Positions 23,953 to 40,093 of a stretch of DNA of 64,000 bases are shown here, one piece after another. The notes beneath the pieces were generated by a model that searched no databases, was not told the DNA's origin, and worked only from the letters and a program-made list of their open reading frames with translations. The stretch is from Xylanibacter rodentium (lineage in GTDB: Bacteria > Bacteroidota > Bacteroidia > Bacteroidales > Bacteroidaceae): positions 45,962 through 109,961 of the forward strand of contig NZ_JABKKE010000011.1 of the NCBI RefSeq assembly GCF_013166575.1, written 5' to 3'. Each line of letters begins with the position of its first letter. Within the stretch, counting starts at the first letter, position 1. Position numbers and translations under genes: made by a program.

Positions 23953-24063
23953 TTGGATTCTGAATTGATAATTATGATTACTCTATATGACAGTTTTGGA
24001 TGAGTGTCCCCATAAAACAAGAGTAATCATAATTATCAATTCTGAATTCTCAACTCTCAATTA
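23953..24063. repeat. family A inverted repeat upstream of the four-helix gene
   Basis: AATTGATAATTATGATTACT (from about 23963) pairs with AGTAATCATAATTATCAATT (from about 24023). The right arm extends to TCTCAATTATAA at 24063 and supplies the TGA of the glycosyltransferase gene. Confidence 0.85.
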
Positions 24064-25094: not shown

Positions 25095-25460
25095 TTAAAT
25101 TAAGAGTTAAGAATTAAGAGGTCTTATCGAGGTCAGAACTTGGAGTATTCTCAAGGTCAGAACTTAGAGTGATGAGTGAAGAGGTATGATTACCCTTGTC
25201 TATCAAGATTGGAGCTCAGAGCTTGGAGTGATGGGGTATGATTGCTATTTCAGACGTGTAGTGTACGTTGCAATATGGCTTGGCAGACCCATACAGACTG
25301 CCCTAAACAAAGAAGAGATATGACAGCTCCCGTATACATATACAAGAGTAATCATACCTCTTCACTTTTCACTCTTCGCTCTTCGTTCAAAGTTCAGACC
25401 TTGAGAAAAAAGGTAATCATACCTCTTCACTCATCACTCTGAGCTCTGAACTTTAAAAAG
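25095..25460. repeat. cluster of family A/B repeat arms
   Basis: The 369 bases between the glycosyltransferase and efp hold no gene and are almost all repeat. An A-like arm abuts the glycosyltransferase start (25095-25122). Forward B arms with GAGTGATGAGTGAAGAGGTA lie near 25168 and a diverged one at 25209-25245. Reverse arms with ATCATACCTCTTCACT lie near 25350 and 25416. They nest into a long imperfect hairpin. Confidence 0.85.
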
Positions 25461-25463
25461 TAG

Positions 25464-26030
25464 TTATTCTTTCACGCGCTGCAGATAGCTGCCGTCGCGT
25501 GTGTCCACCTGGATGAGGTCGCCTTCGTTGATGAACAGCGGCACTCGAACCTCAACGCCGGTCTCCAGTGTTGCGGGCTTTGTGGCGTTTGTTGCCGTGT
25601 CACCCTTGATACCCGGCTCGCTGTGTGTGATGCGAAGGTTGGTTTTCACCGGCATTTCGGCGTAGAGGATAGTCTCGGTGTCGGCATCGCTCACCACCTC
25701 GACAATATCGCTTTCTTTCATGAAGTCAACACCTGTAATGAGGTCCTTTGCGATAGGAATCTGGTCGTATGTCTCCTGATTCATGAATATATAGTCGTTG
25801 CCTTCCATGTAGAGGAACTGGTAGGGACGACGCTCCACGCGTACATCCTCCAAAGCCTCACCGATGTTGAAGCGCTTTTCGAGCACGCGGCCGCTAACCA
25901 CGTCTTTAAGTGTGGTGCGCATGATGGTGTTGCCCTTGCCCGGCTTCACGTGCAGGAAGTCGATGCAGAAATACAGTTTGCCGTCCATGCGGATGCAAGT
26001 ACCTTTCTTGATGTCTTGTGACTTAATCAT
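25464..26030 (-). CDS. efp: translation elongation factor P
   Basis: A 188-residue EF-P with three beta-barrel domains: MIKSQDIKKGTCIRMDGKLY, the loop VKPGKGNTIMRTTLKD with the modifiable lysine at residue 32, and the C-terminal VRVPLFINEGDLIQVDTRDG. It rescues ribosomes stalled at polyproline. It is divergent from rpmH; the two are neighbours in many Bacteroidota. The modification enzymes are not in this window. Confidence 0.96.
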   Translation of the reverse strand: MIKSQDIKKGTCIRMDGKLYFCIDFLHVKPGKGNTIMRTTLKDVVSGRVLEKRFNIGEALEDVRVERRPYQFLYMEGNDYIFMNQETYDQIPIAKDLITGVDFMKESDIVEVVSDADTETILYAEMPVKTNLRITHSEPGIKGDTATNATKPATLETGVEVRVPLFINEGDLIQVDTRDGSYLQRVKE

Positions 26031-26256
26031 AATGTAACGAATCTAATTATTGTTTTATTTATATGTTTTTTCAGTGTTTCAGGATATTTCCGTCAGCCCC
26101 GTTAAAAGCCGTTTCATGCCAGTGTATGCGAGGTACACCGGCGGACACCGGATTGCGGGCAGGTGCCTGATTTTGGCGCAATTACAAACATTTCGGCTGC
26201 AAAGGTACTGAAAAAAAGCAAAAAACATAAAACTTTGAACTAAAAATAATATAATC

Positions 26257-26288
26257 TTTGGCTATTTCGAAATAAATAAGTAATTTTG
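26257..26288 (+). promoter_or_regulatory. rpmH promoter
   Basis: TTTG (26257-26260), 20 bases, TAATTTTG (26281-26288), about 45 bases ahead of the rpmH start. Confidence 0.7.
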
Positions 26289-26332
26289 CACCCCAAAAGT
26301 GTATATAATATAACATAAAAAATAATAAAGCA

Positions 26333-26488
26333 ATGAAAAGAACATTTCAGCCGCACAACAGAAGAAGAGTGAACAAGCACGGCTTCCGCGAGAGAATGGC
26401 AACAAAGAATGGTCGCCGCGTATTGGCTTCACGTCGTGCAAAAGGACGCAAGAAACTGACTGTTTCTGACGAGCATCACGGAAAATAA
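26333..26488 (+). CDS. rpmH: 50S ribosomal protein L34
   Basis: A 51-residue, strongly basic protein [20 protein letters not shown]...HGK, unmistakably L34. It sits in the large subunit near the exit tunnel side of 23S rRNA. It is too short for many gene finders. It has its own promoter and a strong hairpin terminator. No dnaA or rnpA lies beside it, as is usual in this phylum. Confidence 0.97.
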
Positions 26489-26528
26489 TCCGTTGCAGCG
26501 TCAGAGTGTCGGGCGCCTGATGGAAAAC

Positions 26529-26570
26529 AAGAGACTGTATCGTAACTTGGATGTTACGGCACAGTCTCTT
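26529..26570 (+). terminator. terminator after rpmH
   Basis: AAGAGACTGT pairs with ACAGTCTCTT, with an inner CGTAAC/GTTACG stem; the hairpin is followed by T-rich sequence. Confidence 0.8.
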
Positions 26571-26706
26571 TGTCGTTTGTGCAATATATGTATTTTGACA
26601 CAACTTCACGGTATGGTTCTGATATGTCAGAGTTGAAATAAGTTTCACTCTGATTATTTGATTTGACAAAAGCGTTTTTTTGTCTTTATGTTTAAAGAAT
26701 CTTAAT

Positions 26707-27046
26707 GTCTTGATTATTCTGAAAAAAACGCATTTAATTTTTTCTGAAATAGAAAAGCTTTGAGGCCATCCCGACTCCCTTTACACATGTTTTTGGCATG
26801 GTTATCCTGCCGTAAGGGCCTCCCGACACTCCCGCGAGGGCCGTTTCACCTTGCAATAAGGCCGTTATTGCATTGCAACGGCGGCCCCGTTGCGAGGCCA
26901 AACAGCCCTCTCTGCTTTCTTTACAAAGCCCTGCCTACGTAACGTGCTGATTGTCAGTGCTTCCTGTTTGGACCAAAATTCGCGATTTTCGGGCCGTAGT
27001 GTGGAAATTGCAATACGGATGTCGCTTAACATATGTTAAAGTAAAG
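26707..27046 (-). repeat. family G repeat, copy 1 (reverse orientation)
   Basis: About 340 bases. Read on the minus strand it begins TTTACTTTAACATATGTTAA, contains CGACATCCGT, GGGCTTTGTAAAGAAAGCAG and a GC-rich hairpin built on GCAATAACGGCC, and ends GCGTTTTTTTCAGAATAATC. The same landmarks in the same order occur at 46777-47113 and 62889-63228. No open reading frame of note and no transposase is present. Confidence 0.85.
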
Positions 27047-27231
27047 AAATTTCGGATCGATGCACCAAAATCGGATTCTCAGGACTTGAGGATATCCTAA
27101 GCACTTTAATCATACCAAAGTCCCAATATCTGTATATAAGAAATAAGGCAAATCAAAAGTGATGTAGCATCATTTTATGTATTTAGTAGGTTAAATTTTG
27201 TTATAATATCTATATACTTCATAAAACATGC

Positions 27232-27259
27232 GGGGGGGGGAAATTTATACTTAAATTTG
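27232..27259 (+). promoter_or_regulatory. poly-G tract and -7 box ahead of the TerY island
   Basis: Nine consecutive G (27232-27240) lie 11 bases before the -7 box TAAATTTG (27252-27259), about 97 bases ahead of the first island gene. The tract falls where the -33/-7 spacer would be. Slippage in such a tract would change the spacing. The rest of 27047-27355 is AT-rich without a gene. Confidence 0.55.
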
Positions 27260-27355
27260 TGCACAGGACAGTTTAACCACTGTTACAAATCTGAATAACA
27301 ATGCCATACAAGCGACGGATGCAATATTTACCAATGAATATATACCTTATACAAT

Positions 27356-27721
27356 ATGAAGAATCCGAAAAAAGACCTTATGGTGGTGATGGGCATGTGC
27401 AGCCGCACCGGACGACCTTATGGAGTGACTGTTGAAAAACACGGCAGCTACTGCGACCTGCAATGGGCTTTCAAGATAAGCGCCTCGTCGGCCAAGCGTG
27501 AGGGCTACGACCGCAACTCGTTTCATGGCGCAGTAAACACCGACAGCAACTTTCCGGGATGCCCCCACTGCGGTTCGCAGGGATGGTACATCTGCGGTCA
27601 CTGCAAGACAATGATATGCAACGACCAGGAAGAAGGCAAGGTGACATGCCCAAAATGTGGAAAGACAAGCAATCTGGTAATCACTGATGAGTTTGACCTG
27701 AAAGGCGGTGGAAACATGTAA
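27356..27721 (+). CDS. TerY-C-like zinc-ribbon protein
   Basis: A 121-residue protein. Residues 69-101 hold a zinc-binding array (Cys 69, 72, 80, 83, 88, 98, 101; for example GCPHCGSQGWYICGHC and VTCPKCG). The N-terminal 60 residues are predicted to be beta-rich. The cysteine pattern resembles the metal-binding domain found at the C-terminus of TerY proteins; here it stands alone, while the TerY vWA gene downstream lacks it. That split and the position at the head of the operon argue that the two work as one. Metal or partner are not known. Confidence 0.7.
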   Translation: MKNPKKDLMVVMGMCSRTGRPYGVTVEKHGSYCDLQWAFKISASSAKREGYDRNSFHGAVNTDSNFPGCPHCGSQGWYICGHCKTMICNDQEEGKVTCPKCGKTSNLVITDEFDLKGGGNM

Positions 27722-27943
27722 GGAGCCAGCCCCACACGGCCTTCCCAAAGGGGAGGAGAAGTGACGTGAACAGAATATCCACCCAGCCTGAAGAAGGACA
27801 AGAACAGAATGTCGTACCGAAGTGAAGAGTACAACATTTCATATACACAAAAAAGAATAACAAACAGATTACGGTCGTCACCATTTCCTCTCCCCCTGTG
27901 GAGGCCGGGTGGGGCCTCACATCTATCAAACACATTAATATAT
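27722..27943. repeat. family D inverted repeat between the first two island genes
   Basis: Arms near 27722-27766 (GCCCCACACGGCCTTCCCAA...) and 27877-27921 (...GGAGGCCGGGTGGGGCCTCA) are imperfect complements. It separates the zinc-ribbon gene from the kinase gene. The kinase frame stays open upstream through part of it, but the ATG at 27944 is the natural start. Related single arms are at 39952-39995 and 56636-56675. Confidence 0.75.
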
Positions 27944-29224
27944 ATGTCTGAACTTAAAAACGGAACACGCGTGCAGCTTACAAACGGCAAGTCGTGCACG
28001 GTGAAAAAGGAGCTCGGCCGCGGCGGTCAGGGCATCGTATACCTTGTTGACTACGAAGGCAAGGACTATGCGCTGAAATGGTATATAGTGGACTATCCGG
28101 ACGCATTCATGAACAATCTGGAGAAGAACTGCAAGGCCGGTGCACCGACGAAGAACTTCCTGTGGCCCATAGCCGTGGCCCGACGGCAGTACGACAGCTT
28201 CGGCTATGTGATGCAGCTGCGCCCGCAGGGCTATGAGGAGATGGCCATGTACATACTGGCCAAGGCACGCTTCGCCTCGCTCGACGCCATGTTCAACGCC
28301 TGCCTGCAGATATGCACCGGCTTCATGGAGCTGCACAAGCGTGGCCTGTGCTATCAGGATATGAACGACGGCAACTTCTTCATCAACCCCCGCACGGGCG
28401 ACGTGCTCGTCTGCGACAACGACAACGTGGCTCCCAACGGTGTTGACGTGGGCATACTCGGCAAGTCGGGATATATGGCACCGGAGATAGTGGAGCGCGA
28501 GTCGGCACCCAACCGCCACACCGACTATTTCTCGCAGGCCGTGTGCCTGTTCATCCTGATCTATCTGAACAAGCCGTTCGAGGGCGCACGCTACCTTAGC
28601 TGTCCGTGCCTGTCGCCCGAAGCCGAGCGCAAACTTTTCGGCAAGGGCGCAGTGTTTATCTGCGACCCGACCGACAACAGCAACCGTCCGGTGAAGGGCA
28701 TCCACAACAACGTCATCAACCGCTGGCCGCTCTTCCCAAAGTATCTGCAAAAGGCATTTGTGGCAGCGTTCTCGAAAGAGGCGATATGCACGCCGGGCAA
28801 GCGCCTGCTCGACAAGAAGTGGCAGGAGGTGATAATCCAGCTGCGCTCGCTGTACATAAAGTGTCCGCAGTGCGGGGAGCACACCTTCTACGATCCGACG
28901 ACTGCCGACAACCGCTGTCTGGAGTGCGGCCGCACGGTGCCCGCCGTCACGTCGCTCTTCGTAGGCCACTACGCCATCCCGCTGGCCGAGGGACAGAAGA
29001 TATACTGTTGTCAGGTGAAGAACGAGCCCGACTACGACAAGGTGGCCGCCACGGTGGTGAAGAACGCCGCCGGCAAGCTGGGTCTGAAGAACCAGAGCGA
29101 CATGCCGTGGACGGTGATGCTGCCCACGGGCGAGGTGCGCGTGGTGAAGCCGGGCGAGGGCATGCCCGCCGCCAAGGGCCTGAAGATAAGGTTCGGACAG
29201 AACGAGACCGGCGAGATAAAGTAA
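27944..29224 (+). CDS. Ser/Thr kinase-like protein with C-terminal zinc ribbon (TerY-P kinase)
   Basis: A 426-residue protein. Kinase features: Gly loop GRGGQG (25-30), lysine in YALKWY (45), catalytic loop CYQDMNDGNFF (Asp139, Asn144), the metal site as CDND (Asp158) in place of DFG, and GYMAPE (176-181). A CPQC...CLEC zinc ribbon follows (about 305-330), then a beta-rich tail. This layout matches the kinase of the TerY-P triad (TerY, PP2C, kinase) described in Ter-system surveys. It should phosphorylate a protein in the cytoplasm; the target is unknown. A long in-frame extension upstream reads through repeat sequence and is not credible. Confidence 0.85.
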   Translation: MSELKNGTRVQLTNGKSCTVKKELGRGGQGIVYLVDYEGKDYALKWYIVDYPDAFMNNLEKNCKAGAPTKNFLWPIAVARRQYDSFGYVMQLRPQGYEEMAMYILAKARFASLDAMFNACLQICTGFMELHKRGLCYQDMNDGNFFINPRTGDVLVCDNDNVAPNGVDVGILGKSGYMAPEIVERESAPNRHTDYFSQAVCLFILIYLNKPFEGARYLSCPCLSPEAERKLFGKGAVFICDPTDNSNRPVKGIHNNVINRWPLFPKYLQKAFVAAFSKEAICTPGKRLLDKKWQEVIIQLRSLYIKCPQCGEHTFYDPTTADNRCLECGRTVPAVTSLFVGHYAIPLAEGQKIYCCQVKNEPDYDKVAATVVKNAAGKLGLKNQSDMPWTVMLPTGEVRVVKPGEGMPAAKGLKIRFGQNETGEIK

Positions 29225-29365
29225 GGCCGCACAACGATTACAATAATCATCAAACATAGAATTTATAACGTTTTCGTTAAGCCAAATGAACAATGTCAAA
29301 CTTGTTTAAGCATTGCCATGGCGAGAAAACGGGTATTAATATAAACCTTTAAACAACATAACATT

Positions 29366-30130
29366 ATGAGCTCATTTGATAAAGTAGAAGCTGCTCCACG
29401 CAGAGTGATGACCCTTATATTCCTTGTAGACACATCCGGAAGTATGGAGGGAGAGAAGATGGGACAGGTGAATGATACCATCGAGAACATCCTTCCTGAG
29501 ATAGGAGAAATATCAAGCACCAATGCTGACGCAGAGATAAAGATTGCCGTACTGGAGTTTTCGAGCGGCATAGAATGGATGTATCCCGAGCCTATATCGG
29601 CCGAAGACTTCACATGGCAGAACCTCGAGGCCGGTGGGCTCACCAGTATGGGCGAGGCTTTCAAGGAACTGAACACCAAACTGTCACAAACCACAGGATT
29701 TATGAAAGAGGCTGCCGGCTCGTTTGCTCCCGCCATCATCATGCTCTCCGACGGCGAGCCAACCCAGGAATACAAGCATGCACTGGAGAAACTGAAGGCC
29801 AACAACTGGTTCAAGGCTGCTATCAAGGTGGCAATATCCATAGGCGATGATGGCAACAAGGACATTCTTGTCGACTTTACCGGCACCAAAGAGGCCGTGT
29901 ATACGGTACACAACCGCGAACAGCTGAAGAAGATTATCCGCTTTGTCAGCGTGACGGCATCGCAGGTGGCCAGCTCACATTCGTCGGTGGGCAAGGAAGC
30001 TCCTACTACCAAGCAGGAGGAATTTGTAGACAAGATGAACGATGCCGACAACACGTCCGACACATTCGACGGTGTGGACATAGGTGACGAGACCACCAAC
30101 GCCGGCACCGACGACTGGGGCACGTTCTAA
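29366..30130 (+). CDS. TerY-like von Willebrand A domain protein
   Basis: A 254-residue protein whose vWA domain (about 12-200) has a complete MIDAS: DTSGS (22-26), Thr93 in GGLTSMGEAF and Asp129 in MLSDGEPT. A flexible acidic tail (about 205-254) ends in DDWGTF. The metal-dependent adhesion site suggests it binds an acidic partner. It lacks the C-terminal zinc domain of classical TerY, which is encoded separately by the first gene of the island. Gap to the kinase gene is 141 bases with no gene; gap to PP2C is 40 bases. Confidence 0.88.
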   Translation: MSSFDKVEAAPRRVMTLIFLVDTSGSMEGEKMGQVNDTIENILPEIGEISSTNADAEIKIAVLEFSSGIEWMYPEPISAEDFTWQNLEAGGLTSMGEAFKELNTKLSQTTGFMKEAAGSFAPAIIMLSDGEPTQEYKHALEKLKANNWFKAAIKVAISIGDDGNKDILVDFTGTKEAVYTVHNREQLKKIIRFVSVTASQVASSHSSVGKEAPTTKQEEFVDKMNDADNTSDTFDGVDIGDETTNAGTDDWGTF

Positions 30131-30170
30131 AACAGACTGGTAATAGGAAATAACCATAAACCAATCCGTT

Positions 30171-31739
30171 ATGAACGACAACCTGACAGTATTCAACGTT
30201 ACCCGACTTGGTGCCAGTCACACCAAGTCGGGCAAACCGTGCCAGGACTATTCGCTGTCGTGGCAGAGTGACGACAACAGCGTGCAGGTGGCCATAGTGT
30301 GCGACGGCCACGGCGGCGACACCTACGTGCGTAGTGATGTGGGGTCGCGGCTGGCAGCCGAAATCACGCTGAAACATCTGAAAGCCATGAGCGACGACAC
30401 GACAACCTACGCCGGCATATTCTTCGGCCGTAAGGGAGCCGTGACGGCACGACCCACAGGGCCGCGCAAGCTGCACGACCCGAAAAGCCCGAGCGAGAGC
30501 GAGATGCAACTGCTCAAACAAGACGCCCTGTTCAAGAAGCAGATAGCACAGCACGCCGAGCAGGACAAGGTGGTGATGCCGATGTTCAAAAGCATCTACG
30601 ACGAGTGGGCGGCAGCCATCGAGGCCGACGCCAAAGAAAACCCGTTTACCGACTACGAGGCGGGCATGCTCGGCAAGAACCGCATAGCCAAGGCCTACGG
30701 TACCACGCTGATGGCCTTCATGCGCACACCTTATTATTGGTTTGCCTTCCACATCGGCGACGGCAAGATGCTGGCCTGCGACCGCACTCTGACATGGGTA
30801 GAGCCGGTGCCATGGGACTGCAACTGCTTCCTCAACGTTACCACGTCGCTCTGCAACAGCAACCCGCTGCCCTCGTTCCGCTATGCCTTCGACGGCACGG
30901 GAGCATTTCCAATGGCCGTAATCATGGGCAGCGACGGACTGGACGACTCGTGGGTGACCATGCCCAAGCTGCAGCACTTCTACGCCCAGACACTGGAGAT
31001 ATTCGCCAATCAGGGCCGCGACAAGACCGTGGACGAACTGGGCGACTACCTCACCAAGCTGAGCGCCACGGGCAGCCGCGACGACATGTCGATGGCGGGC
31101 ATACTCAACATGGATTTGCTCGACAATGCCTTCACAATGTATGCCACAAGGCAGGAGGGCCTGAAACTGAAGGCAGAGTTTACCAACCGCCAGAGCGAGA
31201 TGGAAAAGCTGAACCACGACCTCGACGAGATGAAGAAGAATCTGGCCGAGGCCGAGAGCAAGCTCGCCACCCTCGAAAAGCAGAAACAGGACGTTGAGAC
31301 CATGCGCCGCGAACTGCAAGCACGTATGGTTCAGGTGGAAACCAAAGCCGCCGAATATGCCGAGATAGACAAAGAGGCACGCGCCCGCAACGCCGAACTG
31401 ATAGCTCAATGGAACACCATGAAGGAAAAGGCCAAACGGGCCGAAGACGATTGGCGCGCACAGTGGATGGCTGAAAAAGGGGCCATGCTGTCAGGAACAG
31501 CCCAACCGGAAGAAACAGTACAGCCTGAAGAAACAATTCAACCGGAAGAAGCAAAGGCCGAAGATCCGGCTGTAGAAGAAGTGAAGGCTGAAGGGCAGAA
31601 CACTGAAGAGCAGAACACTGAAGAGCCGAGTTCTGAAGAACCGGCAACCGAAAAGCCGGAGAAAAAAGACCGTACTGCTTGGTGGTCGGCATTGAATCCA
31701 TGGGCTACTAACGGCAAAGATGAAGACGGAAAAGAGTGA
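30171..31739 (+). CDS. PP2C phosphatase with long coiled coil and acidic tail
   Basis: A 522-residue protein. Residues 1-305 are a PP2C domain with the metal residues in CDGHGGDTY (Asp45), MGSDGLDDSW (about 255) and SRDDMS (about 304). It has an insertion of about 60 charged residues after the first strands. Residues about 320-450 form a coiled coil (heptads of Glu/Lys/Leu). Residues about 455-500 are imperfect PEE/TEE repeats. It should reverse the kinase's phosphorylation. The coiled coil may tether it to other island proteins. Its last 20 bases overlap the next gene. Confidence 0.87.
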   Translation: MNDNLTVFNVTRLGASHTKSGKPCQDYSLSWQSDDNSVQVAIVCDGHGGDTYVRSDVGSRLAAEITLKHLKAMSDDTTTYAGIFFGRKGAVTARPTGPRKLHDPKSPSESEMQLLKQDALFKKQIAQHAEQDKVVMPMFKSIYDEWAAAIEADAKENPFTDYEAGMLGKNRIAKAYGTTLMAFMRTPYYWFAFHIGDGKMLACDRTLTWVEPVPWDCNCFLNVTTSLCNSNPLPSFRYAFDGTGAFPMAVIMGSDGLDDSWVTMPKLQHFYAQTLEIFANQGRDKTVDELGDYLTKLSATGSRDDMSMAGILNMDLLDNAFTMYATRQEGLKLKAEFTNRQSEMEKLNHDLDEMKKNLAEAESKLATLEKQKQDVETMRRELQARMVQVETKAAEYAEIDKEARARNAELIAQWNTMKEKAKRAEDDWRAQWMAEKGAMLSGTAQPEETVQPEETIQPEEAKAEDPAVEEVKAEGQNTEEQNTEEPSSEEPATEKPEKKDRTAWWSALNPWATNGKDEDGKE

Positions 31740-32586
31740 GTTTCATGTCTGTCTGCATCAGATAGTAGACGAGTTTGGTATAGAAGTGATTGCCGAACAA
31801 AAGGCCGAGGCCCTGATGGCCGACATGATGGGACATCGGTTTACGATGGGCTCGGTGATGCGCAGTGCCCGCCAGTGCCACGTGACGCAGCGGCTGCTGG
31901 CACTGATGGATGACGATGTCGCCGACCGCACGCCGCAGATAGACAACCTCAAGCTGCTGTTGCAGGACAACTTCTTCCTGCGCCCGTCGGTGGCCGCCTA
32001 CGTGGTGGACAGCTACTGCTACGCCCTGGGCTACACCGACGACATGGCGCCACTCGACGACTACGACCACGATGAGGCCACGGCAGCTGCCACGGGCGAA
32101 CTTTCGTTTGAAACGGCCGACGACGGCGAGTTCTGCGGATACAAGAACGACGAGTCGCAGCGGTCGGGATTCGGCATACTGAGAAGTTCCAACGGCAACA
32201 CCTACGCCGGCGAATGGAAGCACGGCATAAAGATGGGTTTCGGACTGGGATTCAACCAAAACCGCGAGCGCTATGCCGGCGAATGGAGTTTCAACCGCCA
32301 TTCGGGCATCGGCGTGGAGGTGCAGAACGACGGCAAGCGCTATGCCGGCATGTGGAAGAACGGCCGGCGCAACGGCACGGGCATGATTCATCTGCCCAAC
32401 GGCAACACCGTCTGCGGCACGTTCCGCAATGACAGTCTGACCGACGCCCATGGCACGATGTTCGTGCAGGACGGAAGCATGGTGGTGGGACGCATGACGT
32501 CCGACGGGCCTGACGGCCAATGCGAGCATTATTATCCTGACGGCTCACACTGCACGGAGACGTGGCACCACGGCATATTACAATAA
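31720..32586 (+). CDS. MORN-repeat protein
   Basis: A 288-residue protein. The N-terminal 110 residues are helical and of no family I recognise. From about residue 130 there are five or six MORN-type repeats (YAGEWKHGIKMGFG, YAGEWSFNRHSGIG, YAGMWKNGRRNGTG, and so on). MORN repeats make an extended beta ladder used for scaffolding or lipid contact. It starts inside the PP2C gene (20-base overlap), so the two are translationally coupled. A second MORN-bearing gene closes the island. Confidence 0.8.
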   Translation: MKTEKSEFHVCLHQIVDEFGIEVIAEQKAEALMADMMGHRFTMGSVMRSARQCHVTQRLLALMDDDVADRTPQIDNLKLLLQDNFFLRPSVAAYVVDSYCYALGYTDDMAPLDDYDHDEATAAATGELSFETADDGEFCGYKNDESQRSGFGILRSSNGNTYAGEWKHGIKMGFGLGFNQNRERYAGEWSFNRHSGIGVEVQNDGKRYAGMWKNGRRNGTGMIHLPNGNTVCGTFRNDSLTDAHGTMFVQDGSMVVGRMTSDGPDGQCEHYYPDGSHCTETWHHGILQ

Positions 32587-32607
32587 CCATTTTAATCATA
32601 TAACACT

Positions 32608-33606
32608 ATGGTATTCAAGAAATTATTCGGACCAAAGGAAGAACCGCAACGGCCCGAGAATGCCCCAAAGGAGCAGACTGTAGAACAGGAACAGACTGCT
32701 CGGGAAAGACAGCCCTCCCGGGAAGAACAGACCGTTCAAAGAGAAGAAACCACTCAGTGGAAACATACCGCACAAAGGGAACAAACCCAATATCCCCCGC
32801 AAGCGGAGCCGGAACAAGCCTACAACGCATACACCACAGCAAAGCAAGCACAAACAGAACCCGCACAAACAGAGCAGGCTCCGGCCGAAGAAGCGCCTGA
32901 AGCTACGCCGCAACCGTGGAACGGCGAACCCGTGGCCGTGACCATCGACAACTCGGAGGTGCTGCACGAGACTGAGCGCATAATCGACGCCCTGCGTAAG
33001 AGCATCGCCAACCAAAGGAACATACACGGCATACTGACTCAGCAGATGCAGGACATGCAGGAGCACAACCGTCAGCTGATGGAACAGAACAAGCAGCTGA
33101 CCGACGTGATACGGAATCAGCATCAGACGATAGCCAAGTTCCAGAACGACGTGTTCTACCGCGCACAAAAGGACGTTATAATGGAAATAATACGCATTGC
33201 CGACGAGGTACAGACAATCACCGACGGATGCGCTACAGACAACCCAATGCACAGCGAGCTTGCCGGACTGGCCGACTTCATCGACAAGGGCTTGACGTTC
33301 TCGGCCGTGCGCAGTTTCAGGCATGCCGATGGCTGCTCCGACGGGTTCGACCCCAAATGCCAGGAGTTTGACTCCACACCTGTGCACACCGACAACCCTG
33401 CCAAGCACGGCCTCATCGTATCGGTGCGCCCGGGATATGTGTGGACAATGCCGTGGCTCGTGGCCAACACCGACGTGCAGCTTCAGAACTTCATGCGCGA
33501 CAATCACGAGCCCAAGCGTTTCGAATTTGTCATCCGACCCGAGCTCGTGGCAAGGATGGAATATGTGGAAAGTGAAGAGTCTTTTTCTGTTCAGAGCGAA
33601 GAGTGA
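32608..33606 (+). CDS. GrpE-like nucleotide exchange factor, divergent
   Basis: A 332-residue protein. Residues 1-110 are low-complexity (Gln/Glu/Pro/Ala/Thr). A coiled coil covers about 115-190, as in GrpE. Residues about 190-320 carry a GrpE-like head pattern: NDVFYRAQKDVIMEIIRIAD, SDGFDPKCQEFDSTPVHTDN and VSVRPGYVWTMPWLV, resembling the G-x-x-FDPxxH and GY motifs of GrpE. It lies just upstream of a dedicated Hsp70, which supports the exchange-factor role. The last residues (SFSVQSEE) come from a family B repeat. Functional call is inference from pattern and position. Confidence 0.6.
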   Translation: MVFKKLFGPKEEPQRPENAPKEQTVEQEQTARERQPSREEQTVQREETTQWKHTAQREQTQYPPQAEPEQAYNAYTTAKQAQTEPAQTEQAPAEEAPEATPQPWNGEPVAVTIDNSEVLHETERIIDALRKSIANQRNIHGILTQQMQDMQEHNRQLMEQNKQLTDVIRNQHQTIAKFQNDVFYRAQKDVIMEIIRIADEVQTITDGCATDNPMHSELAGLADFIDKGLTFSAVRSFRHADGCSDGFDPKCQEFDSTPVHTDNPAKHGLIVSVRPGYVWTMPWLVANTDVQLQNFMRDNHEPKRFEFVIRPELVARMEYVESEESFSVQSEE

Positions 33607-33712
33607 TGAGTCTTGAGGTATGATATGCTTTATGCCGTTCCAGCCGAACTGTTCACTCTGAACTATACAGAAGGTAATCATACCTCTGCACTCATCACTC
33701 TGAACTCATAAC
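33579..33712. repeat. family B inverted repeat at the end of the GrpE-like gene
   Basis: The left arm (CTTTTTCTGTTCAGAG... TGAGGTATGATATG) starts inside the gene and provides its last codons and TGA. The right arm (GGTAATCATACCTCTGCACT... ACTCTGAACTCA) ends near 33712. A family I fragment (GAGCGACCGCAGGGAGCGAT) follows at 33739-33786, then a short AT-rich leader to the Hsp70 gene. Confidence 0.8.
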
Positions 33713-33812
33713 TAAATGAAGCATTTGTTTTTAACTCCTGAGCGACCGCAGGGAGCGATGACTCCCGTTAACTCCTTTAACTTCTAAAAAAACTCCCAAA
33801 AGAAAAAAAGAA

Positions 33813-35294
33813 ATGTCACAAGAAATATACGGTATCGACCTTGGCACTACCAACTCGTGCATTGCCACTATCAATCCTGCTGACGGACAGCCGGAGGTTA
33901 TCATCAATCAAGCAACCCAACAGACCACACCATCGGTGGTATACTACGATGATTTAGACACGCCCATAGTAGGCAACGACGCCAAGAATATGATGAAGAT
34001 GAACCCGTTGCGCTCTGTGGCGTTCATCAAGCGCGAGATGTCGAACAAGAACTACAAGCGCAGCATAGGCACTGAAGAAATATCTCCGGTGAAGATTTCG
34101 GCACTCATACTGAAAAAACTGGTGGACGACGCCAACATAGCCCGTGAATACGAGGGTAAGGCGCCTATACACAAGGCTGTGATAACCGTGCCGGCATATT
34201 TCGGCAACGATGAGCACGTTCTTACACGCCAGGCTGGCGAGGTAGCCGGACTTGAGGTGATTGGACTGCTCAACGAGCCCACCGCTGCGGCACTGAGCTA
34301 CGGCAAGGACACCTTTGAGGGCAAGACCATCATGGTGTACGACCTTGGCGGAGGCACATTCGACGTGAGCATCATTCGCATGCACAACGGCAATCTCGAG
34401 ACCCTTGCCACCGATGGCGACCACCATCTCGGCGGAGTGGACTGGGACGAGATGATAGTGAACTACACACTGGCCGTGTCGGGCTACGACGTGACCTATG
34501 CCGACATAAAGGACAAGAAAGAAGGCGGCGCCATGATACTTGCCGCCGAGCAATGCAAGCAGCAGCTGTCGGTGCAGACCAAAGCCCCTATGCGTTTCCG
34601 CTACGGCGGCAGCAAGCTGCAGACGGTGGAGATAAGTCAGGCCACATTCAAGGAGCTGACAGAAGAACTGCTCGACCGCACCATCGACTGCACCCACCAC
34701 GCCATCGGACTGATGAAGGAGCAGATAACCATTGACGAGATAATCCTTGTGGGCGGCTCATCGCGCATGCCGATGGTAAAGGAACGGCTGATGAGAGAGT
34801 TTCCCAACATCAAGATACGCCTCGACCGCTTCGAGCCTGATCTGGCCGTGGCCAAAGGTGCAGCCCTATATGCCGCCAACACCAGCGTCATCGACGACAA
34901 GTCGGCACGCTCCTACGGTATACTTACCACCACGGGTATCACCAACGTACTGTTGCGCACCGACCCGATGGTGTTTGAAGGAATTTCCCATTTCATCACC
35001 TCAAGCGAGGGACAGAGCAGTGTGTGGATAAAAGTGTACGAGAACTCCAGCGCCGAACCTACCATACACCAGTCGAAAGGCGACCTTATACTCAAGCGCG
35101 AACTTTCGTGGGGCAAGCCTGTGCCCAAGGGCACCGAGGTGACGGCTTTTGTGCGCCGCGGCAAAGACGGCATAGTGCATATAGAGGTGAAGTGCGAAAG
35201 TTCATCGGTGACACTTGAGATACAGCCCGAGAGACAGTTGTCGGCCACAGAAGTAAAGAAACTGAAAGACGAATTCAAGGATATAGAACTCTGA
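33813..35294 (+). CDS. short Hsp70 (HscC/DnaK-like) chaperone without lid
   Basis: A 493-residue Hsp70. The ATPase domain is complete: YGIDLGTTNSCIA, VITVPAYFGNDE, LLNEPTAAALSYG, VYDLGGGTFDVS and ILVGGSSRMP. The substrate-binding beta domain (about 375-470) is present but the helical lid of DnaK (about 100 residues more) is absent. No DnaJ is in the window. The truncated form recalls HscC-type specialised Hsp70s. It probably acts on island clients, with the upstream GrpE-like protein as exchange factor. The LIM-DA1 gene starts 2 bases after its stop. Confidence 0.9.
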   Translation: MSQEIYGIDLGTTNSCIATINPADGQPEVIINQATQQTTPSVVYYDDLDTPIVGNDAKNMMKMNPLRSVAFIKREMSNKNYKRSIGTEEISPVKISALILKKLVDDANIAREYEGKAPIHKAVITVPAYFGNDEHVLTRQAGEVAGLEVIGLLNEPTAAALSYGKDTFEGKTIMVYDLGGGTFDVSIIRMHNGNLETLATDGDHHLGGVDWDEMIVNYTLAVSGYDVTYADIKDKKEGGAMILAAEQCKQQLSVQTKAPMRFRYGGSKLQTVEISQATFKELTEELLDRTIDCTHHAIGLMKEQITIDEIILVGGSSRMPMVKERLMREFPNIKIRLDRFEPDLAVAKGAALYAANTSVIDDKSARSYGILTTTGITNVLLRTDPMVFEGISHFITSSEGQSSVWIKVYENSSAEPTIHQSKGDLILKRELSWGKPVPKGTEVTAFVRRGKDGIVHIEVKCESSSVTLEIQPERQLSATEVKKLKDEFKDIEL

Positions 35295-35296
35295 CA

Positions 35297-35989
35297 ATGT
35301 CACCGATACGATGGCCGGGCAGCCTAACATGCTTGATGTGCGGCAAGCCGATCCGTGGGTCCTACCTGTCCGACTGGAATGGCAATGCCGTGTGTGCCGA
35401 CCACACGGCCGACACCATACCGCGCTGCGTGAGCTGCCACAGGTTTTGCGACCCGCGGCAGTCCACGCCGTTATCGCACGGTGCATACCTGTGCCCCATC
35501 TGCTGCAGCGACGTGGTAAACAGACAGACGGCTGCCGCCATCGTATCGTACATTCGTCGCGCATACATTAAGGCCGGACTTGGCGAGATAAAGAACTGGC
35601 GACTGAAGGTGACCGACCTTGACACCATGTACAACCGCCACGGCAACATCAACGTGCGCGGTTATGCCAGCAACTTCTGCGGCAACTACGAGGTGTACGT
35701 GCTGCGCCACCTTTCGCGCGTGGCCTTTGCCAACGTGCTGGCCCACGAGCTGCTGCATATATGGCAGTTCAACCATCACCTGGACCCCATCCCGCCACTG
35801 TGCGAGGGCTTCTGCAACATGGGCAGCTATTACGTGCTCCAGCACATAGGCAACGACGAGGCACACGCCTTCATGGCCATGCACGAAAACAACACCGACC
35901 CCGTATATGGCAATGGATTCAGGATAGTAAAGGCCGCCTACGACCATGGAGGATGGGATGAGGCACGAACACTGCTCACAAACAAATAA
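35297..35989 (+). CDS. LIM-like zinc domain plus DA1-type metallopeptidase
   Basis: A 230-residue protein. Residues 12-70 contain a treble-clef, LIM-like double zinc site (Cys 12, 15, 33, His 36, Cys 44, 47, 51, 66, 69/70). Residues about 85-225 hold a zincin with AHELLHIWQFNHH (HExxH at 150-154) and the third ligand in CEGFCN (Glu170), matching the DA1-like peptidase that in plants follows a LIM domain. It could cleave or test a client delivered by the adjacent Hsp70. It is packed against the Hsp70 gene. Bacterial LIM-peptidase proteins have been noted, but their targets are unknown. Confidence 0.8.
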   Translation: MSPIRWPGSLTCLMCGKPIRGSYLSDWNGNAVCADHTADTIPRCVSCHRFCDPRQSTPLSHGAYLCPICCSDVVNRQTAAAIVSYIRRAYIKAGLGEIKNWRLKVTDLDTMYNRHGNINVRGYASNFCGNYEVYVLRHLSRVAFANVLAHELLHIWQFNHHLDPIPPLCEGFCNMGSYYVLQHIGNDEAHAFMAMHENNTDPVYGNGFRIVKAAYDHGGWDEARTLLTNK

Positions 35990-36029
35990 CATAACAACGG
36001 CAGACACGCCGCCTTCAAAAAAAACAATA

Positions 36030-38309
36030 ATGGCAGACCCATTACTTAAAATCAAAGCGAACGACTGGATAAAGAGCGTTATCACCATTCGCGACAACAT
36101 AAAGCGATTTGAGAAAAAGGAGGCCGAAGCCTTCATCTGTGCCGTACGCGCCGTACTCGAGATTGACACGGTCGGCAAGCAGATGGCCGAGGCCGACCTG
36201 AATGAGCTCGGCAACTATATTCATGAGGCCATGCAGGATGATTTCTGCACAGCCGTGCAGAAGTTTGTGACCTCGTCCCGCAAGTTCAACACAAGCGTAG
36301 GTACACTCAAAGAACTGCGCCTGCTCATAGGCAAAGACATCAGCCATCTCATTTTTGCTAAGACACCAGAACCGTCAACCCCCATACACTATAAAACAGC
36401 CACGGTAGACACGCCACCTTCAGAACAAACGACAAAAGCAGACACATTATTTAAACTTAAAGCTGACGGATGGATAAAGAACGTTATCATCGTTCGCGAC
36501 AACATAAAAAATTTTGAAAAACATGAAGCCGAAGCCTTCGTCAATGCCGTGCGTGCCGTGTTTGAGATAGACACGGCTGGCAAACTGATAGTCGATACCG
36601 ACCTGAGCAAGCTTGAAAATTATATAAATAATGCCAAACCTGGCCCATTCTACACTGCCGTACAGCAATTTATCGTATATACCCGCAAGTTTAACAAGAG
36701 CGTAGATACGCTCAAAGAACTGCGCCTTTACATTTCCAAAAACATCACCGAGTTCGCCTTTGCCAAGACCCCCGAACCTCCCAAACCCATACAGCGGAAA
36801 GTGACCATGCCCAACGGTGCTGTATGGGAAGGCACGTTCCTCGGCGACGAACCGGTACAGTCGGGCAAGATATTCTACAAGAGCGGCTTCAGATATGAAG
36901 GACAATGGAACAAGTATGGCCCCCACGGATACGGAAAAGACTACGATGATAAGGGTGTTGTACTTGGCGAAGGTCATTATTACAACGGCAGGCAAGCTGG
37001 TAGAGGCGTGTATTATGACGGTAACGGCAAAAAATTCTACGAAGGTGAATGGGACGAAGGTGACAACGGAATGCCCAAGGACGGATGCCGCGGATACATA
37101 ATCAACGACGATGGCAGCAAGACAGAGGCGGAGTGGCAAAACGGCGATATAAAGGAAGGAAAAACAATACCGTCACCTAACAAACCCGCTTCTAAACCTA
37201 CTCCCAAACCTGCATCACAGACGCAAAAACCGAAAACATCGTCTTATTCTTCATCCTCGTCTTCTACATCGACTTATCGGCCTCAACCGGCCAAGCCGAA
37301 GAAGAAAGACGGTTGCAAGACATCGTGTCTGATATGGATTTTCATTCTTCTGTTTGGAAGCGGGCCGATATATTTCGGCAGCCAATGGCTGTTGGAAAAG
37401 TTCGCCGAGCAACCCGTAGCCTACGAAGAGCTGTTGCAAGGCCCGTGGAACGGCACAGTGGGCGAAACACCTGCCACACTGCTCTTTACCGAGATGCGGG
37501 GTGACTCTGTCTTTGCACGCCTCACTGCAAAATACCGCAAGAAGGTGACACACAGGCTCGAAGGCTTTGTAAACCGTAAGGAAAACTACATATATTTCAC
37601 TGATATGGATACGGACAAATATATGAACGGTGACTTCAGGATATCCATGACCGACAGTCATGATTCGCTCACCGGCCATTTCATTGCCACAACCAGCAGA
37701 AGAACAGTACCGGTAAGTTTCGGCAAGTCGGACAGCATATATGTGGAGGAAAAGACAAAAAGCACCACCACAACAAGCAAGCAGACGAAGAAGAAACGAA
37801 ACACCGGGACTGCTGCCACTGAAAAGCAGCCAAGCGAAGAGGCATACGAAAGGGTAATGTCCAAAGCACAAGCCATGGCCGATGCTGATGCTGCAAAGGG
37901 GAAGCCCGACAAAGCCGTACAATCGGAATCGGCCGTACGGAACGAAACGCCGGCCCACACGGCCCCGGTCGAAGATAATGAGAAGGCCGACAACACTCCC
38001 GTAGTGTCGGCTGATATGATGCCGTCGTTCCCCGGCGGAGACGCTGCGCTTATGAGGTGGTTGGGCCAGAACATCAGATACCCGGCAGATGCAATGGAGA
38101 ACGGAATACAGGGGCGTGTTTTCGTCAGGTTTACCGTTGACAAGAACGGTACCATCCACGACCCGAAAGTGATCAGAGGTGTAGACCCGTCACTCGACAG
38201 GGAAGCGCTCCGCGTAATCAAGGCCATGCCTCGTTGGATTCCCGGCAAGAATAACGGCAGAGCTGTTGCCGTATACCTGACTCTGCCCGTAACATTCAAG
38301 CTGCGCTGA
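36030..38309 (+). CDS. duplicated helical domain, MORN, membrane segment, TonB C-terminal domain
   Basis: A 759-residue protein read from ATG at 36030. Two copies of a helical domain of about 110 residues come first (ANDWIKSVITIRDNIKRFEK and ADGWIKNVIIVRDNIKNFEK). MORN-like repeats follow (about 255-365). A Pro/Lys/Ser linker precedes one membrane segment (SCLIWIFILLFGSGPIYFGS, about 433). A beta domain comes next, and a C-terminal TonB fold (FPGGDAALMRWLGQNIRYP to VYLTLPVTFKLR). The topology places the helical and MORN parts in the cytoplasm and TonB in the periplasm. It may carry the island's signal to the envelope. The frame stays open to 35946, overlapping the previous gene. Confidence 0.8.
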   Translation: MADPLLKIKANDWIKSVITIRDNIKRFEKKEAEAFICAVRAVLEIDTVGKQMAEADLNELGNYIHEAMQDDFCTAVQKFVTSSRKFNTSVGTLKELRLLIGKDISHLIFAKTPEPSTPIHYKTATVDTPPSEQTTKADTLFKLKADGWIKNVIIVRDNIKNFEKHEAEAFVNAVRAVFEIDTAGKLIVDTDLSKLENYINNAKPGPFYTAVQQFIVYTRKFNKSVDTLKELRLYISKNITEFAFAKTPEPPKPIQRKVTMPNGAVWEGTFLGDEPVQSGKIFYKSGFRYEGQWNKYGPHGYGKDYDDKGVVLGEGHYYNGRQAGRGVYYDGNGKKFYEGEWDEGDNGMPKDGCRGYIINDDGSKTEAEWQNGDIKEGKTIPSPNKPASKPTPKPASQTQKPKTSSYSSSSSSTSTYRPQPAKPKKKDGCKTSCLIWIFILLFGSGPIYFGSQWLLEKFAEQPVAYEELLQGPWNGTVGETPATLLFTEMRGDSVFARLTAKYRKKVTHRLEGFVNRKENYIYFTDMDTDKYMNGDFRISMTDSHDSLTGHFIATTSRRTVPVSFGKSDSIYVEEKTKSTTTTSKQTKKKRNTGTAATEKQPSEEAYERVMSKAQAMADADAAKGKPDKAVQSESAVRNETPAHTAPVEDNEKADNTPVVSADMMPSFPGGDAALMRWLGQNIRYPADAMENGIQGRVFVRFTVDKNGTIHDPKVIRGVDPSLDREALRVIKAMPRWIPGKNNGRAVAVYLTLPVTFKLR

Positions 38310-38326
38310 AATACGCCAGCAAGTGT

Positions 38327-38386
38327 AAATATGGTGTCTCAGAACCCGACAATACGATTACTGGAGTTCTGTGACACCATATTTTT
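38327..38386 (+). terminator. terminator of the TerY island
   Basis: AAATATGGTGTCTCAGAAC pairs with GTTCTGTGACACCATATTT (one mismatch) and is followed by T residues, 18 bases after the last island gene. Confidence 0.8.
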
Positions 38387-38705
38387 ATTGATGACGATAC
38401 ACGTCACAGATATTCTACACATTTTCCGTGTCAGTGGATTTTTGTGATAACAGTCTTGTCTGCAACCAACTCTTGAATATGATTGCTCCACGGCTCCTTT
38501 TTCGTATTATTTACACAAAATACTTGCACAACAGGAAATAAAGCGCTATTTTTGCGGATATATACGAACGTATCATGCAGTGCGGTCCGTGTCCTTACAT
38601 CATATCCGACATAATCGTCAGAATCCGGCATGTGCCGGTATTGTCACGGCAGACGGCATTGTCCTGCAGTAGCAACAATCAGAAACTGAACATAAACATA
38701 TACCA
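38387..38705 (+). promoter_or_regulatory. intergenic leader with proA promoter
   Basis: No gene is visible. CTTG (38523-38526), 20 bases, TATTTTTG (38547-38554) form a Bacteroidetes promoter. The leader to proA is about 150 bases, with a small GGCATGTGCC hairpin near 38629; I cannot assign a riboswitch. Confidence 0.55.
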
Positions 38706-39947
38706 ATGACAGAGACATTCAAGAAAGCCAAGTCGGCCGGCCGGAAACTCGCACTGCTGACCGATGAAAAGCGTAACGGGATATTGCGTGATGTGGCCGA
38801 TGCGATAATAGCCGGTAAGAGCTACATATTGCAGGCCAACGTTGCAGACCTGAAAAAGATGGAACCGTCGGATCCGCTTTACGACCGGCTGATGCTTACG
38901 GAAAGCCGGTTGGAGTCTATAGCCGCAGACATGCGCAATGTGAGCCGGCTGCCGTCGCCGTTGGGCCGCACCTTGACAGAGCGTACGCTTGACAACGGTT
39001 TGAGACTGAGGCGCGTGAGTGTGCCGTTCGGTGTGATCGGCATGATATATGAGGCACGGCCAAACGTAACATTCGACGTTTTCGCGCTTTGTTTCAAAAG
39101 CGGCAATGCATGTGTGTTGAAAGGCGGACGCGATGCCGACTGTTCCAACCGTGCCGCGGTCGATGTGATACATAAGGTGCTTGCCGGTCATGGAATAGAC
39201 ACGGCGGCGGTCACGCTTCTTCCTGCCACTCACGAAGCCACGGCATCCATGCTGTCGGCCGTAGGATATATCGACCTTTGCATACCGCGCGGCGGACGCA
39301 AGCTGATAGACTTTGTACGCGACACGGCCCGCGTGCCGGTAATAGAGACGGGCGCCGGTGTTGTGAACACCTACTTCGACGCGGCGGGAGATACGGAAAA
39401 AGGACAACGCATCATCTGCAATGCCAAGACAAGGCGCGTCAGCGTGTGCAATGCTCTCGACTGTCTGCTTGTACACCGTGCTCGCCTGACCGATCTTCCG
39501 GCCTTGTGCGCTCCGCTGGCCGAAAAGCAGGTGACCGTCTTCGCCGATGTTTCTGCAATGAATATGCTGCGCGGCTCTTATCCCGACAGACTGCTTGCCG
39601 ACGCCACGGCCGACAGCTACGGCACGGAATACATGGACTACAAGATGGCCGTCAGAACGGTATCGTCGGCCGCCGAGGCAATAGACCATATCAACCGCTA
39701 CGGCTCGGGACACAGCGAGTGTATCATAACGGAAGATGCAGATACGGCGCGACAGTTCCAGACAAGGGTAGACGCAGCCTGTGTATATGTCAACGCCCCC
39801 ACGAGTTTCACCGACGGGGCACAGTTCGGGCTTGGGGCCGAAATAGGAATAAGTACTCAGAAACTGGGGCCGAGAGGACCGATGGGTCTTGAGGAGATTA
39901 CCACGTACAAGTGGCTCATCGAGGGTGACGGACAGATAAGGGAATAA
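38706..39947 (+). CDS. proA: glutamate-5-semialdehyde dehydrogenase (gamma-glutamyl phosphate reductase)
   Basis: A 413-residue aldehyde-dehydrogenase-fold enzyme that reduces gamma-glutamyl phosphate with NADPH in proline synthesis. Motifs: [59 protein letters not shown], and [17 protein letters not shown] with the catalytic Cys. The C-terminal [20 protein letters not shown] is standard. proB lies 7 kb downstream on the other strand rather than beside it. argF' follows after 147 bases containing a family D repeat arm. Confidence 0.96.
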
Positions 39948-39951
39948 GAAG

Positions 39952-39995
39952 CCCCACCCGACCTCCCCAAGTGGAGGAGAAGTGAAGAAACGGGG
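39952..39995 (+). repeat. family D repeat arm
   Basis: GCCCCACCCGACCTCCCCAA followed by GGAGGAGAAGTGAAG: a single arm of the family seen as an inverted pair at 27722-27943. Confidence 0.65.
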
Positions 39996-40093
39996 ATGGG
40001 TTCGAAGTGATGAAGCACAGTCACCACAAGTAGGGATTGGGATGGCGGCAGTGCAGAAGAAATACGATTATACAATTTAAAGGACAAGACAAT

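Follow-up and report, generated by a model that had tools for sequence, protein, structure and literature searches.

A 64,000-nt stretch of Xylanibacter rodentium contig NZ_JABKKE010000011.1 (the window) carries, at 27356-38309, a run of nine plus-strand open reading frames (ORFs), g1-g9, in which the genes of a TerY-P phosphorylation triad are followed by those of a second Hsp70, a GrpE-like factor, and a DA1-like peptidase. Our tentative reading, to which we would give slightly less than an even chance, is that the split TerY, the kinase, and the PP2C phosphatase form with these three proteins a phosphorylation-gated conflict or stress system, where the triad would switch on chaperone-assisted proteolysis. 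The seven-gene set is real but rare. A second locus, L008, keeps the order kinase-vWA-PP2C-MORN-GrpE-Hsp70-DA1 of the window at 35-57% identity, with junctions that range from a 28-nt overlap to a 27-nt gap (L-numbers denote loci compared with the window; A-type and B-type are two labels for triad loci, and the window triad is A-type). TerY-P triads are known via comparative genomics and their outputs are poorly understood, while the DA1-type peptidase family is mainly familiar from plants; the pairing of such peptidases with the triad and, separately, with Hsp70/GrpE makes the peptidase a concrete candidate output. If the reading is true, a bacterial chaperone would pick substrates for a signal-gated protease. 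The features are as follows.

27356..27721, +, g1: stand-alone TerY_C zinc domain, 121 aa (PF15616, 39.0 bits; cut-off 28.4)
27944..29224, +, g2: Ser/Thr kinase with C-terminal four-Cys zinc ribbon (PF00069, 49.8 bits)
29366..30130, +, g3: TerY-like vWA protein (PF00092, 46.5 bits)
30171..31739, +, g4: PP2C phosphatase with C-terminal coiled coil (PF13672, PP2C_2, 96.2 bits)
31720..32586, +, g5: DOMx (about residues 8-110, from profile comparison) and MORN repeats (PF02493, 47.4 bits)
32608..33606, +, g6: putative divergent GrpE-like protein (hhalign profile comparison)
33600..33712, strand not given: dispersed palindromic repeat in the g6-g7 gap (58 matches in its own genome)
33813..35294, +, g7: second Hsp70, 493 aa (PF00012, 306.7 bits)
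35297..35989, +, g8: DA1-like gluzincin peptidase with N-terminal LIM-like Cys/His motifs (PF12315, 27.0 bits; cut-off 25)
probably 36030..38309 (ORF opens at 35946), +, g9: TonB-domain protein (PF03544, TonB_C, 79.8 bits)
38327..38384, +: intrinsic terminator hairpin (-28.1 kcal/mol, z -6.1)

Triad genes and cluster layout

The genes g2-g4 supply all that describes a TerY-P triad in the part of PMC11090510 drawn on here, namely a TerY-like vWA protein (g3), a PP2C phosphatase (g4), and a kinase with a C-terminal zinc ribbon (g2), and the sequence-only reading that preceded this work had named them as such. The g1 and g3 products jointly cover one TerY: the fused vWA-TerY_C protein of L036 (TerY_C 157.6 bits), which serves as the canonical TerY reference, aligns to both. 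A g1-like gene is present also in L035, L049, L051, and L090. The start of g2 was moved to 27944 from the ORF opening at 27809 because its relatives in the alignment begin at the residue encoded there, and from that start its active-site-like residues align with those of L008, L015, and L016. The kinase retains the lysine and a YQDMNDGN loop, DND replaces DFG, and its zinc ribbon consists of four aligned Cys, all Pfam ribbon matches falling below cut-off. In alignment with the same three loci, g3 keeps the MIDAS-like residues DxSGS, T, and D; g4 retains DGHGG plus later Asp-Gly and Asp-Asp positions. The tail of g2 past the ribbon (about 28950-29220) resembles an FHA-type beta domain by eye, with no Pfam FHA match at E <= 1.

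The earlier statement that no Ter genes accompany the cluster stands within the searches made. Three TerD and two TerB-like query proteins gave no tblastn match in the window at E <= 0.01, in a search that did not properly cover TerC, and the Pfam scan of the nine genes contained none of TerB, TerC, and TerD.

The same reading had described eight same-direction genes behind a leading TerY_C ribbon, joined by overlaps or tiny gaps and closed by a terminator. All nine ORFs are indeed co-directional, most with Pfam matches above cut-off; the 20-nt overlap of PP2C and MORN (g4/g5) and the 2-nt gap between Hsp70 and DA1 (g7/g8) are both borne out; and the terminator hairpin was equaled by none of 200 shuffles. 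Tight packing holds at several junctions but not throughout, since three wide gaps break the cluster (g1-g2, 222 nt; g2-g3, 141 nt; g6-g7, 206 nt), and the GrpE and LIM labels have no direct Pfam match behind them. The g9 start is more likely at 36030, as suggested by its counterpart in L007, which would place a 40-nt gap after g8 in lieu of a 44-nt overlap that is probably a start-call artefact. The repeat in the g6-g7 gap has its 58 genome matches counted with itself included, most of them partial, and the 223-nt gap region folds with a z of -5.2; the L008 counterparts of g6 and g7 lie 2 nt apart, versus 206 nt in the window. Rfam gave no match within window positions 24000-41000, and scans for sigma-70-like and TTTG/TAnnTTTG promoters yielded nothing useful at the cluster start.

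Chaperone and peptidase genes and their neighborhoods

The g7 Hsp70 consists of an ATPase domain and the beta part of the substrate domain, and the C-terminal lid is absent: its PF00012 match reaches profile position 513 of 599, and the Hsp70s of L007 and L008 end early too. Aligned with the DnaK of its own genome, g7 has the ATPase motifs DLGTTNS, DLGGGTFD, and GGSSRMP intact. We do not claim the cassette Hsp70s as one clade, as support in the Hsp70 tree is mostly weak.

For g6, the GrpE label did not come from a direct match, there being none in Pfam or NCBIfam, and PF01025 was touched by only two of eight members of the g6 family, at E 0.0041 or worse. Profile comparison with hhalign gave 94.3% (E 1e-7, colinear) against four GrpE proteins, 94.4% against the L021 GrpE alone, and 87.4% against the E. 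coli and L021 GrpEs together. Single GrpEs from E. coli, its own genome, and L057 gave 0.8%, 0.2%, and 2.3%, respectively; all 14 controls (11 shuffled, one reversed, two unrelated) stayed at or below 0.3%. The tie to GrpE holds because the L021 protein, itself above the Pfam cut-off (PF01025, 43.8 bits), carries it as an intermediate. On these profiles, we take g6 to be a divergent GrpE that has a long low-complexity N-terminal tail, a central coiled-coil-like stretch, and, close to its C-terminal end, an insert. Part of PMC12915176 describes contacts between GrpE tails and the DnaK substrate domain, and for this reason the long g6 tail is a plausible control point.

The peptidase g8 has the motif HELLH followed, 20 residues on, by EGFC. 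The zinc-site residues HExxH and EGxC are present in all 18 DA1s, and C44, C47, C66, C69, H150, E151, H154, and E170 of g8 are invariant in 19 aligned rows. Conserved Cys/His pairs occupy the N-terminal part, which has no Pfam LIM match at E <= 1 and which we presume to be LIM-like from the pattern. No DA1 was found among solved structures.

The DA1 set comprises 18 loci (the window, L007-L021, L039, and L040), and a locus was counted as having partners when the stretch seen contained two or more of the three kinds of triad gene, or Hsp70 with GrpE. Such partners occur in 12 of the 18: an A-type triad together with Hsp70/GrpE in two (window, L008), an A-type triad only in two (L015, L016), B-type triad genes in five (L018, L019, L020, L039, L040), and Hsp70/GrpE only in three (L007, which is cut upstream, L017, and L021). 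L018 is without a kinase and L040 without a vWA gene in the stretch seen, where both contigs end, and L018-L020 are close kin and not independent. DA1-vWA-PP2C-kinase forms a tight same-strand run in L039; in L021, DA1 lies 11 nt upstream of GrpE, which three Hsp70 genes follow. In the tree of 18 DA1s, those linked to Hsp70 fall in two distant supported pairs (window + L007, 96/94; L017 + L021, 98/97), with L008 near window + L007 but not firmly placed, and triad-linked DA1s sit on several branches. The 15 DA1-bearing genomes contain six Hsp70 clusters with scores of 216-399 bits, and four of the six are no more than 10 kb from DA1. Left out of this count were DnaK matches (over 850 bits), MreB-like rows (under 40 bits), smaller fragments of the counted clusters, and three partial pieces at 110-225 bits.

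Some neighbors of DA1 are of a different kind. In L010 (2991-10663), DA1 directly follows a Tubulin_2 gene and a gene for a 788-aa protein, which recalls the tubulin theme in part of PMC7159879. In Prevotellamassilia timonensis (L021/L060, 676-14090), DA1, GrpE, and the three Hsp70 genes lie downstream of a TraG-type coupling protein gene, and the region also encodes a large zinc-ribbon protein whose N-terminus looks J-like by eye, with no Pfam J match. Downstream of the seven genes in L008 (11876-15605), two NAD-synthase-like genes, the second recognized by eye, flank a TerB-like gene (22.2 bits, below the 24.4 cut-off) and one FGE-domain gene.

The families are thinly spread. DA1 occurs in 3 of 393 genomes of the order and 1 of 395 of the class, and a motif scan of the genome collection returned 15 loci, all Bacteroidales. 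Among 60 relatives, and again among 393 order genomes, the g6 GrpE-like protein turned up in a single genome, the window's own both times, so an eight-gene operon conserved across Bacteroidota is rejected. Of 120 congeners, five have the vWA gene at E 1e-10; its score is strong in G466 and the window's own genome, and in G434, G462, and G472, where it scores lower, it sits in clusters with TerD-like proteins by eye. At E 1e-20 it is found in 8 of 393 order genomes, two weak ones beside TerD-like proteins. Co-occurrence of the families, which the sequence-only reading proposed as its check, is seen for seven genes in L008; the full set is rare and the families are partly scattered, an outcome that this reading had named as refuting it. 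Of its wider interpretation, the linkage of triad with chaperone and DA1 genes finds support in L008; conservation of the full set and an output to the envelope are not supported in the form given.

Genes behind A-type triads and the DOMx domain

We compared 11 Bacteroidales A-type triads (window, L008, L015, L016, L035, L049-L053, L090); a distant one lies on a Methylomonas plasmid (L091). Among them, the window and L008 alone have Hsp70 with GrpE beside the triad. DA1 is confined to these two, L015, and L016, and the three relatives were all found via DA1. Other genes take this place elsewhere. In L035 (4060-9642, a congener) and L051 (5003-10856, another family), the triad stands with Hxs radical-SAM maturation genes and peptidoglycan-binding proteins, HxsB and HxsD being above cut-off in both and HxsC in L051. 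L049 (2561-9469) encodes a 2302-aa protein in which DOMx, at the N-terminus, is joined to a DUF4011 helicase and an MTES_1575 nuclease; the protein matches PADLOC PDC-S37 (1255 bits) and Hhe (555 bits). TPR-like proteins (by eye) lie beside the triad in L050, and ZorB-like (49 bits), ZorA-like (32 bits), extra vWA, and caspase-domain genes lie near it in L053 (6146-17908). In L090 (13621-27799, Prevotella sp. E2-28 plasmid pE2-28), TerY_C-kinase-vWA-PP2C is followed by four DOMx proteins, two of which have FGE and FtsK fusions, and a UvrD-exonuclease, with ADP-ribosylglycohydrolase genes upstream. The triad is a hub, and the genes behind it are exchanged among relatives. A conflict role is suggested because restriction-type, Zorya-like, caspase, and FtsK/UvrD-exonuclease genes adjoin these other A-type triads.

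A domain without a Pfam model, DOMx, recurs in these neighborhoods and is probably an adaptor. Profile comparison shows the first ~105 residues of g5 to be homologous to a domain encoded at other A-type triad loci (96.8%, 10 shuffles <= 0.4; 97.8%, 20 shuffles <= 1.8). DOMx is present in 8 of the 11 Bacteroidales loci; L050 and L053 are without it, and L052 is cut by a contig edge. When a model of the DOMx copies was run on the other loci, its only additional matches at E <= 1e-4 were duplicates of places already counted. The domain is fused to MORN (window), BspA-type leucine-rich repeats (LRR; L015), FGE and FtsK (L090), and helicase-nuclease (L049), and it is multi-copy beside the core genes in L090 (four) and L035 (three). 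From L091 we recovered a broad bacterial family of 131 proteins, 120 of which were used in the comparison with DOMx; this family is homologous to it (96.8%, E 2.5e-10, 20 shuffles <= 0.7) and has fusions to Sel1, FGE, DUF1566, receiver, and LRR domains, and to MORN in P0029. The strength of the link is due to the 120 added relatives of the Methylomonas copies, as with those copies alone it was weak and alignment-dependent (0.8%/17.9% when badly trimmed; 17.7%/48.9%/74.5% when trimmed). None of the Pfam matches to 15 DOMx segments was convincing (best E 0.011), and identity with the Pfam effector-associated domains (EADs) was dropped, no such match appearing among the 15. DOMx fits two features of EADs as given in part of PMC7159879: it is likewise small and fused to varied effector-type domains, and likewise multi-copy near core genes. 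It differs in that none is fused to a kinase, vWA, or PP2C gene at the eight DOMx-bearing Bacteroidales triad loci in the DOMx model search. As a common adaptor, DOMx would mark neighboring proteins that are probably controlled by the triad.

Mechanism, alternatives, and known systems

In the scheme we propose, a trigger would be sensed by the vWA/TerY_C pair and the zinc-ribbon kinase. Kinase and phosphatase would then set the phosphorylation state of the g5 DOMx-MORN protein, and perhaps of the g6 tail, and this state would dock or release the Hsp70-GrpE pair. The lid-less Hsp70 would hold clients only briefly, and the presented protein would be clipped by the DA1-like peptidase. Every step past gene content, motifs, homology, and neighborhood is one that we infer. 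A bolder version, which we regard as doubtful, has the Bacteroidales TerY-P triads as a plug-in immune hub on which DOMx docks interchangeable effectors under kinase/phosphatase control; the window effector would be the lid-less Hsp70-GrpE pair selecting proteins for DA1-type cleavage, a chaperone-guided proteolytic immune response. Part of PMC11090510 reports TerY-P-like modules as stand-alone antiphage defence and describes the triads in both defence and metal sensing. We consider conflict more likely than metal stress.

Several results weigh against a phosphorylation-gated conflict system built on chaperone and peptidase. The coupling of triad, chaperone, and DA1 comes mainly from two loci, the window and L008. 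In the stretch read, both DA1 and Hsp70 are absent from the seven triad loci found without recourse to DA1 (L035, L049-L053, L090); of these, L052 is only 3.8 kb long and ends at a contig edge, and L035 is cut by a contig end. Neither partner is seen at six of the 18 DA1 loci (L009-L014), of which two lie on contigs shorter than 8 kb; a tubulin-like gene is near DA1 in one of the six (L010), and the other five show none of these neighbors. In L017, about 8 kb separates DA1 from the GrpE-Hsp70 pair, which is on the opposite strand. The cluster has no J protein, and g7 might borrow the housekeeping DnaJ (L027). Window proteins match PADLOC models weakly, the kinase best at 40 bits. Searches of viral contigs, phages, and plasmids brought up no DA1, and on these searches a prophage, phage, or plasmid origin for it is rejected. 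A role in tellurite, metal, or heat stress is also compatible with the data.

That two adjacent modules, the triad with DOMx (g1-g5) and an Hsp70-GrpE-DA1 quality-control set (g6-g9), merely share islands with no functional coupling seems to us rather unlikely. Each half does occur by itself, the triad with DOMx and no Hsp70 in L035, L049, L051, and L090, and GrpE-Hsp70 with DA1 and no triad in L021 and L017 (on opposite strands in the latter), and in the window g6 and g7 are parted by the 206-nt gap with its dispersed repeat. However, all seven genes of L008 overlap or lie within 27 nt of one another, g6 is on the triad side of the gap in the window, and DA1 pairs with either half in other genomes.

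We also find it unlikely that the cluster is a phosphorylation-controlled quality-control or metal-stress system with no phage role, in which the zinc-binding TerY_C, kinase ribbon, and DA1 would sense metal or oxidative damage and the chaperone-protease would repair or remove damaged proteins. TerY-P has been hypothesized to be a metal-sensing switch (in the part of PMC11090510 used here, citing Anantharaman 2012); the E. coli Hsp70 gene yegD lies beside yegI-pphC-yegL and is up when the locus gene yegJ is overproduced (in part of PMC13232886); and DA1 is in no phage or plasmid record searched. Against this, so sporadic a spread (vWA strong in 2 of 120 congeners, DA1 in 3 of 393 order genomes) suits an accessory function better than a housekeeping one, and restriction-type genes adjoin other A-type triads.

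An output to the envelope through g9, which the sequence-only reading had proposed for what it called a MORN-TonB protein, is the weakest link. The protein has a duplicated helical N-terminal repeat and then the TonB C-terminal domain (PF03544), which upholds the TonB part of that label; the MORN-like repeats and a membrane-span-like stretch were seen by eye, with no Pfam MORN match at E <= 1. Homology of the N-terminal repeat to a 706-aa protein of L057 was unsupported (5.9%). An envelope-stress system with g9 as the true output and Hsp70/DA1 processing envelope precursors is very improbable, for although g9 has TonB_C and the membrane-span-like stretch, His-Xaa-Ser systems accompanied by peptidoglycan-binding proteins occur in two A-type relatives, and a TonB_C protein neighbors DA1 on the opposite strand in L020, g9 is missing from L008, and its L007 counterpart covers a 98-aa stretch (35.7% identity) of a protein without a Pfam TonB match.

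Returning to the phosphorylation-gated system, the titles and abstract starts of the best-ranked papers, few subscription papers included, described no TerY-P or Hsp70/GrpE cluster with DA1. Plant DA1 has a LIM domain. The plant enzyme shares with g8 a DA1-like peptidase domain after LIM-type zinc motifs, and its activation by ubiquitylation is a feature of the plant enzyme (part of PMC5322733). With the TerY-P triad as described in PMC11090510, in the part cited, the window shares the adjacent TerY-like vWA, PP2C, and kinase with C-terminal zinc ribbon; it differs in that TerY_C is a separate gene, searches found neither TerB nor TerD, and the genes behind the triad include Hsp70, GrpE-like, and DA1-like ones. 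The same part describes CoCoNuT Type III-A, which also has a TerY-P triad and an Hsp70-like domain in one predicted system, but with Hsp70 fused to McrC in a McrBC-type system, whereas the nine window genes have no McrBC Pfam match. In GTPase-centered GAP1-N2 conflict systems, Hsp70 + GrpE and kinase-zinc ribbon + PP2C + vWA are two of three non-overlapping themes (part of PMC7159879); those systems are built on a GTPase, while the window unites both themes in one cluster, and Pfam finds no GTPase domain, and hence none of the TRAFAC type of GAP1-N2 systems, in the nine genes. The main text of PMC7159879 mentions neither DA1 nor LIM. E. coli yegD-yegI-pphC-yegL is a looser parallel in which an Hsp70-family gene likewise adjoins kinase, PP2C, and vWA genes, yet yegD is convergent to the triad and without a substrate-binding domain (alignment), and the locus has no annotated GrpE or DA1 gene.

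The cluster is flanked by efp/rpmH (rpmH recognized by eye) and proA. Clean insertion into an empty site is unsupported: among 17 other proA loci, 14 have a proB-like gene (recognized by eye, on its N-terminal part) ahead of proA, whereas in the window proA (38706-39947) is split from proB (47485-48243), on the opposite strand. The site has therefore been rearranged. Elsewhere in the same genome (L061, contig C34, 7386-12102), a third Hsp70-type gene, encoding 403 aa of the ATPase part, lies between two dynamin-type-GTPase-like proteins (by eye) with zinc-ribbon proteins beside it, and this is possibly a GTPase-Hsp70 conflict system.

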